DNA of 64,000 bases, from contig JAHILE010000029.1 in NCBI GenBank assembly GCA_018897155.1, forward strand, positions 1 to 64,000, written 5' to 3'. The stretch's first letter is position 1; each line of letters opens with the position of its first letter. The stretch comes from Nanoarchaeota archaeon (GTDB lineage: Archaea; EX4484-52; LFW-46). Under the pieces are notes generated by a model that saw only the letters and a list, made by a program, of their open reading frames with translations, did not search any database and was not told where the DNA came from. The translations under genes and the position numbers were made by a program. Below are positions 31,031-59,338 of this stretch, piece after piece.

Positions 31031-31041
31031 AAGATTATGAG

Positions 31042-31226
31042 CGTCGGGAGAGAGATTTGAACTCTCGAGTCCTTGCGGACACCAGCTCTCGGGAAACTTT
31101 CCAGGCTGGCGCCATCTACTCCGCTCATTCAGGGATTATTTCAATAATATTGCGCGAGTGGACGCGAGTCCACTTTAAATGCATTTTGACATTCCTGACG
31201 AGCGCACCGAGCTAGGCGACCCCGAC
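31042..31226 (-). tRNA. tRNA-Ser(GGA) with two introns
   Basis: The acceptor strands are GTCGGGG (31220-31226) and TCCCGAC (31043-31049), with discriminator G at 31042. The D-stem is GCC/GGC. The anticodon stem is CCAGC/GCTGG with loop CTGGAA...A, anticodon GGA at 31100-31102. The variable arm is long (GTCC-GCAA-GGAC), as expected for Ser. The T-arm is GAGAG-TTCAAAT-CTCTC. An 11-base intron occupies 31088-31098 at the canonical 37/38 site. A second intron of about 88-91 bases (about 31116-31206) interrupts the D-loop. It contains the perfect hairpin GTGGAC-GCGA-GTCCAC, and its ends pair as CGCTC/GAGCG. With both removed the RNA is about 83 nt. Confidence 0.85.
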
Positions 31227-34553: not shown

Positions 34554-34670
34554 AGGTCCGTGGTCTAGTCATGCGATTGCATAGCAATTTTCCTTATGCT
34601 CCGTATGAGAAATTGGTATGACGCCGCACTCACACTGCGGAGATCCTGAGTTCAATCCTCAGCGGACCTA
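34554..34670 (+). tRNA. tRNA-Val(CAC) with a 44-base D-loop intron
   Basis: Acceptor AGGTCCG/CGGACCT with discriminator A. D-stem GTC (34563-34565)/GAC (34620-34622). Anticodon arm CCGCA-CTCACAC-TGCGG, anticodon CAC. T-arm CTGAG-TTCAATC-CTCAG. The D-loop is interrupted by bases 34569-34612. The intron has stems CATGCG/CGTATG and GCATA/TATGC. The junctions fit a bulge-helix-bulge with bulges AGT and AAT, each cut after the second base. This gives D-loop TAGTTGGTAT and a 73-nt tRNA. The mature D-arm matches that of tRNA-Val(TAC). Confidence 0.9.
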
Positions 34671-34692
34671 TTTTCATTTTTGAATTACCCTA

Positions 34693-58108: not shown

Positions 58109-58331
58109 TGGGGCCCCCGGGAATTCCACGACGTTCAGGTTTTTGACCTCTGCAACAGCAGAGGTCTGTTGTTCTTTCTTTTCTACCCGGACTTGTCTTT
58201 TCTTTCTTACAAGAAAGAAAAGAAACCGAATTGAACCCGGATCGCCAGCAATTTCGAACCGCAAAATTTAATTAATCATAAATTATGCGGCTGCCCCAAG
58301 CTGGAAGGCTACCAAGTTACCCCAAGACCCC
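58109..58331 (-). tRNA. tRNA-Pro(GGG) with anticodon-loop and T-loop introns
   Basis: Acceptor GGGGTCT (58325-58331)/GGGCCCC (58110-58116), discriminator A at 58109. D-stem GGG/CCT with loop TAACTTGGTAG. Anticodon stem CCAGC/GCTGG, anticodon GGG at 58295-58297. A 43-base intron (58251-58293) lies at 37/38. T-stem CCGGG (58236-58240)/CCCGG (58117-58121) is split by a 107-base intron (58123-58229) inside the T-loop, with bulges ATT and ATT. It contains two strong hairpins, TCTTTTCTTTCTT paired with its complement and GACCTCTGC-TGTT-GCAGAGGTC. Mature length is 73 nt with T-loop TTCAATT. Confidence 0.9.
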
Positions 58332-58392
58332 AACGTCATAAGAATTGATGCGCATATTTAATAAGGTTTGAAATGCGTGGGGTTTTCTTCAA

Positions 58393-59180: not shown

Positions 59181-59338
59181 TGGGTCAAGCCAGATTTGAA
59201 CTGGCGACCTCCGCCTTTCATAAACTGCAAAGTGCTGGACTGCTGATAAATGACCATGCCGAAGGCATGGTCGCTCTAAGCGCCAGCCGATTATGCGGCT
59301 GTGTAAGGGCGGCGTCATAACCACTAGACTATTGACCC
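59181..59338 (-). tRNA. tRNA-Val(TAC) with an 85-base intron
   Basis: Acceptor GGGTCAA/TTGACCC, discriminator A. D-arm GTC-TAGTGGTTAT-GAC. Anticodon stem CCGCC/GGCGG, loop CTTACA...A with anticodon TAC at 59303-59305. T-arm GCCAG-TTCAAAT-CTGGC. The intron 59217-59301 sits at the canonical 37/38 site and folds into hairpins CAGCCG-CATAAT-CGGCTG and GACCATGCC-TTC-GGCATGGTC. Mature length is 73 nt. The intron shares 16 identical bases with the region downstream of tRNA-Ser. Confidence 0.92.

Follow-up and report, generated by a model that had tools for sequence, protein, structure and literature searches.

The only tRNA-Pro(GGG) gene of this archaeon carries in its T-loop an intron that is very probably a copy of a mobile DNA repeat, which inserts in tRNA T-loops and at TAA stop codons, completes a bulge-helix-bulge (BHB) motif, and is most likely removed from the transcript by the splicing endonuclease EndA together with RtcB. 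Sequence comparisons point to a small, genus-restricted element, probably moving as DNA.

Within the window (the whole 64,000-nt stretch of DNA analysed), sequence reading, homology search, a BHB script and ARAGORN placed this single-copy precursor on the minus strand at positions 58331 to 58109. ARAGORN on the spliced sequence delimits exon 1 (5′ end to position 37; 58294–58331), exon 2 (positions 38–59; 58230–58250) and exon 3 (position 60 to the discriminator A; 58109–58122). These are separated by a 43-nt intron 1 at position 37/38 (58251–58293; ARAGORN and sequence inspection) and a 107-nt intron 2 at position 59/60, in the T-loop (58123–58229; genome searches and BHB script), the latter representing subtype A of the repeat family. 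With both introns removed, a 73-nt tRNA with T-loop TTCAATT is obtained, which ARAGORN calls tRNA-Pro(ggg). A first-pass annotation, made from the sequence alone, had proposed this identity, both introns with these lengths and positions, and cuts in the ATT bulges that restore the T-loop, all of which agree with the BHB layout and ARAGORN; one amendment concerns intron 1, where a helix (AGCCGCA/TGCGGTT) adjoins the BHB and the BHB central helix contains a G-G mismatch. At 59/60, the T-stem halves CCGGG and CCCGG flank a central helix TTCA:TGGA, bulges ATT|ATT and an outer helix of 4 bp, i.e., the archaeal arrangement of a 4-bp helix between two 3-nt bulges at the exon–intron junctions, and removal of the introns restores a canonical tRNA. 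An AATT repeat at both T-loop junctions makes the cut point ambiguous in the sequence, and the product is unambiguous. The precursor folds far better than its shuffles (z −5.8), in line with the “structured insertion” of the first-pass annotation. Unspliced, the gene was missed by ARAGORN and, in a scan of the window, by the Rfam tRNA model.

In this archaeon, tRNA-Pro(GGG) is the only reader of CCC proline codons. Searches with the spliced tRNA found no intact Pro(GGG) copy, such as would speak against the interrupted gene, either here or in the sister genome, the only other one available for the genus (both are fragmented MAGs, 96% and about 89% complete). The Pro(GGG) gene of the sister genome has introns at the identical two positions. 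A contig search with the gene downstream of tRNA-Pro(GGG) returned a single archaeal relative, in MAG FW215_bin.29.

A TATA-box-like TTATTAAATA (58355–58364, minus strand) is located 24–33 nt upstream of the gene, and the sister genome shows its counterpart. In archaea, transcription of tRNA genes is driven by a TATA box ahead of the gene, without an internal promoter, so the T-loop intron disturbs no promoter, contrary to the first-pass view that it would disrupt an internal promoter-like region. In the proposed mechanism, transcription would start from this upstream box and both BHBs would then fold; the inverted ends of the T-loop copy (CGGTTTC...GAAACCG and variants) would pair into the outer helix, and T54–A57 would pair with the final bases of the intron (TGAA/TGGA), which would complete the bulge-helix-bulge. 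The splicing endonuclease would cut both 3-nt bulges and RtcB would join the exons, restoring T-loop TTCAATT, while the excised intron is expected to circularise. Selection for spliceability would then allow the element to be tolerated in single-copy tRNA genes. The splicing steps are modelled on known archaeal splicing, and the tRNA splicing endonuclease with RtcB is the most likely route of intron 2 removal. One endonuclease gene (EndA; this genome, contig C48, 52919–53611) and one RtcB gene were found. The endonuclease has an extra loop, NPYKxGxKxxKEH, inserted at the place of the specificity loop of the ARMAN-type enzyme, and carries IRA or IRS in place of the VRK of solved relatives, i.e., without the usual active-site lysine. 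This lysine is absent from every compared member of the order covering the site, and the tyrosine, the histidine and the ARMAN-like extra loop are kept. The missing lysine counts against the proposed mechanism.

The 59/60 layout recurs across both genomes. A script requiring T-stem, acceptor stem and BHB, complemented by a second pass with looser limits, found 23 T-loop introns at 59/60 (18 of them from this repeat family), in a tRNA census that is incomplete because multi-intron genes escape the models. All 23 genes have a 7-bp acceptor stem, a 5-bp T-stem, a BHB (some with three of four central pairs) and a restored T-loop. None was recognised by ARAGORN as it stands, compared with 20 of 23 after removal of the T-loop intron alone, three of these 20 with the wrong isotype owing to further introns. 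Given this common layout, the ARAGORN recovery and the sister Pro(GGG) gene, the T-loop BHB of tRNA-Pro(GGG) is not a chance feature. The first-pass description of the T-loop position as “very unusual” was too strong, 59/60 being already listed for archaeal tRNA introns (PMC4090602). Other 59/60 introns, in Arg-CCT, Gln-CTG and Glu-CTC (L156, L157, L154, L146), are unrelated in sequence to the family, and the orthologous Arg-CCT T-loop introns differ in length between the two species (29 nt against 89 nt).

Further introns were observed in the window. A tRNA at 34556–34671 has a D-loop intron (CATGCGATTGCAT...GTATGAGAAA), and similar sequence interrupts a D-loop in the sister genome (L152) and the Glu-CTC T-loop in this one (L199), making a second repeated intron family. 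The best reading of the tRNA at 59181–59338, which ARAGORN calls Ser(tga), is Val(TAC) interrupted by a large intron in the anticodon loop; GCCGCATAATCGGC and a GCGAC...GTCAC hairpin of this intron recur in introns of other anticodon loops (L199, L204), and the same hairpin is similar to P4 of the T-loop element (see below).

Intron 2 belongs to a dispersed repeat family, with matches to the T-loop intron alone across this genome and its sister. The first-pass suggestion that its long hairpins may have a function of their own was incomplete: the intron is part of a mobile repeat family, and this could not be seen from one window. When an element model was run against 34 genomes of the order (all of the phylum examined), only the two genomes of the genus matched at E 0.001. 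A weak match in one other genome (E 0.0016) was rejected as a copy, being A/T-rich and without element structure on reading. Among viral contigs, the exact core pattern gave five matches, in two unrelated contexts and with the tracts absent, which were judged to be chance. T-loop copies occupy eight tRNAs here (for Pro, Thr, Asp, Leu, Ser, Ala and Ile) and 10 in the sister genome (Pro with three anticodons, Asp, Ser, Ala, Leu and Arg), where one further copy occupies position 37/38 of Ser(CGA), its splice site having been judged by eye. The two tRNA-Ser(GCT) genes, one in each species, contain the element in reversed orientation and still form a BHB; such a copy could alternatively have arisen by in-place inversion between the inverted ends of the element.

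At least seven copies lie outside tRNA genes, so that the family is not confined to tRNA genes at spliceable sites in the manner of Thermoproteales introns. The TAA stop (TAATNCGG and near variants) is the exact starting point of each of the seven; the open frame that it closes has at least 100 codons, and all seven copies run in the direction of their gene. Pfam names were assigned to five of these genes (transcription factor B, ATP synthase subunit F, ribosomal protein S15, deoxyhypusine synthase and M48 peptidase); an eighth probable stop copy (L067) runs off its contig end. The right end of stop copies did not show the short terminal inverted repeats of tRNA copies (CGGTTTC/GAAACCG) and reads AGTCACATG and similar, against CCGGTGAA and similar in tRNA copies. 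Because these right ends differ, the two classes may not have been moved by one mechanism. No clear target-site duplication was found at the element copies; the recurrent targets are the T-loop and the TAA stop.

Comparison between the two species for gain or loss, already suggested in the first-pass annotation, identified seven orthologous sites at which only one of the two species has the element. Four are T-loops (Leu-GAG, Ile-GAT, Pro-TGG and Ser-GGA), and the others lie outside tRNAs, at the 3′ ends of atpF (where both flanking genes are conserved) and S15 and at a gene beside tRNA-Ala. The Ser(GGA) gene of the window (31041–31226, minus strand) contains a D-loop intron of roughly 100 nt and an empty T-loop, and its sister ortholog carries the element at 59/60. 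Five tRNAs (Pro-GGG, Pro-CGG, Asp, Ser-GCT and Ala-CGC) are filled in both species with different subtypes. Closely similar introns are thus shared by tRNAs of different identity and have been gained or lost between the two relatives. The filled and empty sites, together with the subtype differences at the five shared tRNAs, argue for a mobile element, and the reversed copies and the stop-codon copies outside tRNA genes for its movement at the DNA level.

The element itself has a conserved architecture. In intron 2 (minus strand), a left terminal CGG (58226–58228) forms P1, the outer helix of the BHB, together with the right end, an alternative pairing with a middle CCG being possible. It is followed by a pyrimidine tract Y (TTTCTTTTCTTTCTT, 58211–58225) and a purine tract R1 (AAGAAAGAAAAGA, 58195–58207), the 5′ and 3′ strands of hairpin P2, and then by a conserved linker (CAAGTCCGGGTAG, 58182–58194) that includes the 5′ strand of helix P3, a second purine tract R2 (AGAAAAGAAAGAA, approximately 58171–58183), and hairpin P4 (GACCTCTGC-TGTT-GCAGAGGTC, approximately 58145–58166). 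Across 13 copies, 88.5% of cells in P1–P4 are paired, dropping to about 44–53% in a slid-partner control. Double-change cells numbered 43, against 14.0 in shuffles, a contrast inflated by the kinship of the copies, which the slid control retains. The compensatory secondary structure of the element is conserved. In some copies (L067, L090, L095, L144, L148), extra hairpin inserts were seen at recurrent points, and similar palindromic repeats are dispersed elsewhere between the genes in both genomes.

Downstream of P2, R2 is the mirror image of R1, i.e., a parallel complement of Y, and is a candidate third strand. This mirror rule holds in four subtypes with different tracts, with T-A-A or C-G-G triads at 261 of 276 positions, and triads switch in concert at several positions, notably 11, 12, 13, 15 and 16. 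Shuffled third strands of fixed composition matched equally well in 0.4–1.9% of cases, depending on the subtype. A role of R2 as a mere alternative hairpin arm was rejected, the antiparallel Y/R2 match scoring below the parallel mirror match in most copies. Perfect Y/R1 pairing is not required, as most subtype A copies share a T-T mismatch. Mirror tracts do not form Watson-Crick pairs, and the known structure that needs them is the purine-motif triplex. The concerted change of Y, R1 and R2 is thus the sequence signature of a candidate intrastrand purine-motif triplex (Y-R-R); the reverse strand would form a pyrimidine-motif triplex instead. The sequence supplies the Y tract, complementary R1 and mirror second R tract expected of such a triplex, but its second loop, of about 10–15 nt and longer with inserts, exceeds the 1–6 nt of a published triplex database. 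We tentatively entertain the fuller reading, in which this three-way covariation would mark a triplex core of a mobile element that targets T-loops and stop codons, completes the BHB, and is rendered harmless in either orientation by host splicing.

Other explanations fit parts of these data. Classical tRNA intron transposition, through reverse splicing and recombination or through gene conversion via a shared GGTTCAAAT box, has been inferred for Thermoproteales (PMC4033280, PMC4090602); on this view the stop copies here would be secondary debris. Most copies do sit at 59/60 with identical BHB geometry, and the subtype switching at five shared tRNAs resembles conversion, but reverse splicing would predict neither the reversed copies in both Ser-GCT genes nor seven of seven copies placed exactly at stop codons without T-arm homology, and we regard this route as rather unlikely. 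The TAA start of all seven stop copies and their orientation along the upstream gene would also suit a 3′-end module of protein genes (a terminator-like or RNA-stabilising hairpin with a U-rich tract after the stop) that tRNA genes have captured; this origin is improbable, however, with R2 lost from some stop copies (L148, L149), so that the structure is not uniformly kept, and with the element missing at the same genes in the sister species. It is hardly credible that tRNA-Pro is a dead gene or an assembly chimera: annotation tools do miss it, but its exons are complete, no other Pro(GGG) gene was found in either genome, and an independent sister genome has the same architecture. A spliceable copy of a mobile DNA repeat thus remains the explanation that we favor.

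Transposition has been inferred in Thermoproteales as a way in which archaeal tRNA genes gain introns. Here, filled and empty sites, reversed copies and copies outside tRNAs speak for the movement of a defined element as DNA, and they provide sites at which this is testable. The three-way covariation, in which a pyrimidine tract changes together with two purine tracts, is an unusual kind of sequence evidence for selection on a natural intrastrand triplex. This combination was not found described in the literature searched, which lies largely outside subscription journals.

Archaeal MITEs and palindrome-associated elements, for example the PATEs of Haloquadratum, are likewise short, palindromic, apparently non-autonomous and dispersed; the element differs in being spliceable within tRNAs. 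Intrastrand Y-R-R triplex repeats have been catalogued in bacteria, e.g., TMECO of E. coli (PMC4666352), which shares the Y-R-R layout, the purine-motif third strand, dispersed copies and sites variable between relatives, whereas the tracts here are A/T-rich, with 12–13 triads and a second loop of about 10–15 nt or longer rather than 1–6, and are part of a larger structured element as well as of tRNA introns. Archaeal BHB tRNA introns are known at non-canonical positions including 59/60, with multi-intron tRNA-Pro in Pyrobaculum (PMC4090602), so that the BHB, the 59/60 position and a second intron at 37/38 have parallels, while the 59/60 introns here come mostly from one repeat family with a conserved fold. 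Thermoproteales intron transposition, inferred in 2010 work and considered here as summarised in PMC4033280 and PMC4090602, likewise involves similar sequences in unrelated tRNAs and recent gain; relative to those summaries, ours is a different lineage, with reversed copies and with stop-codon copies outside tRNA genes. Position 59/60 and multi-intron tRNA-Pro (PMC4090602) and intron transposition in Thermoproteales (PMC4033280) are therefore already known, and what is new is the lineage, the non-tRNA and reversed copies, the filled and empty sites, and the triplex signature.
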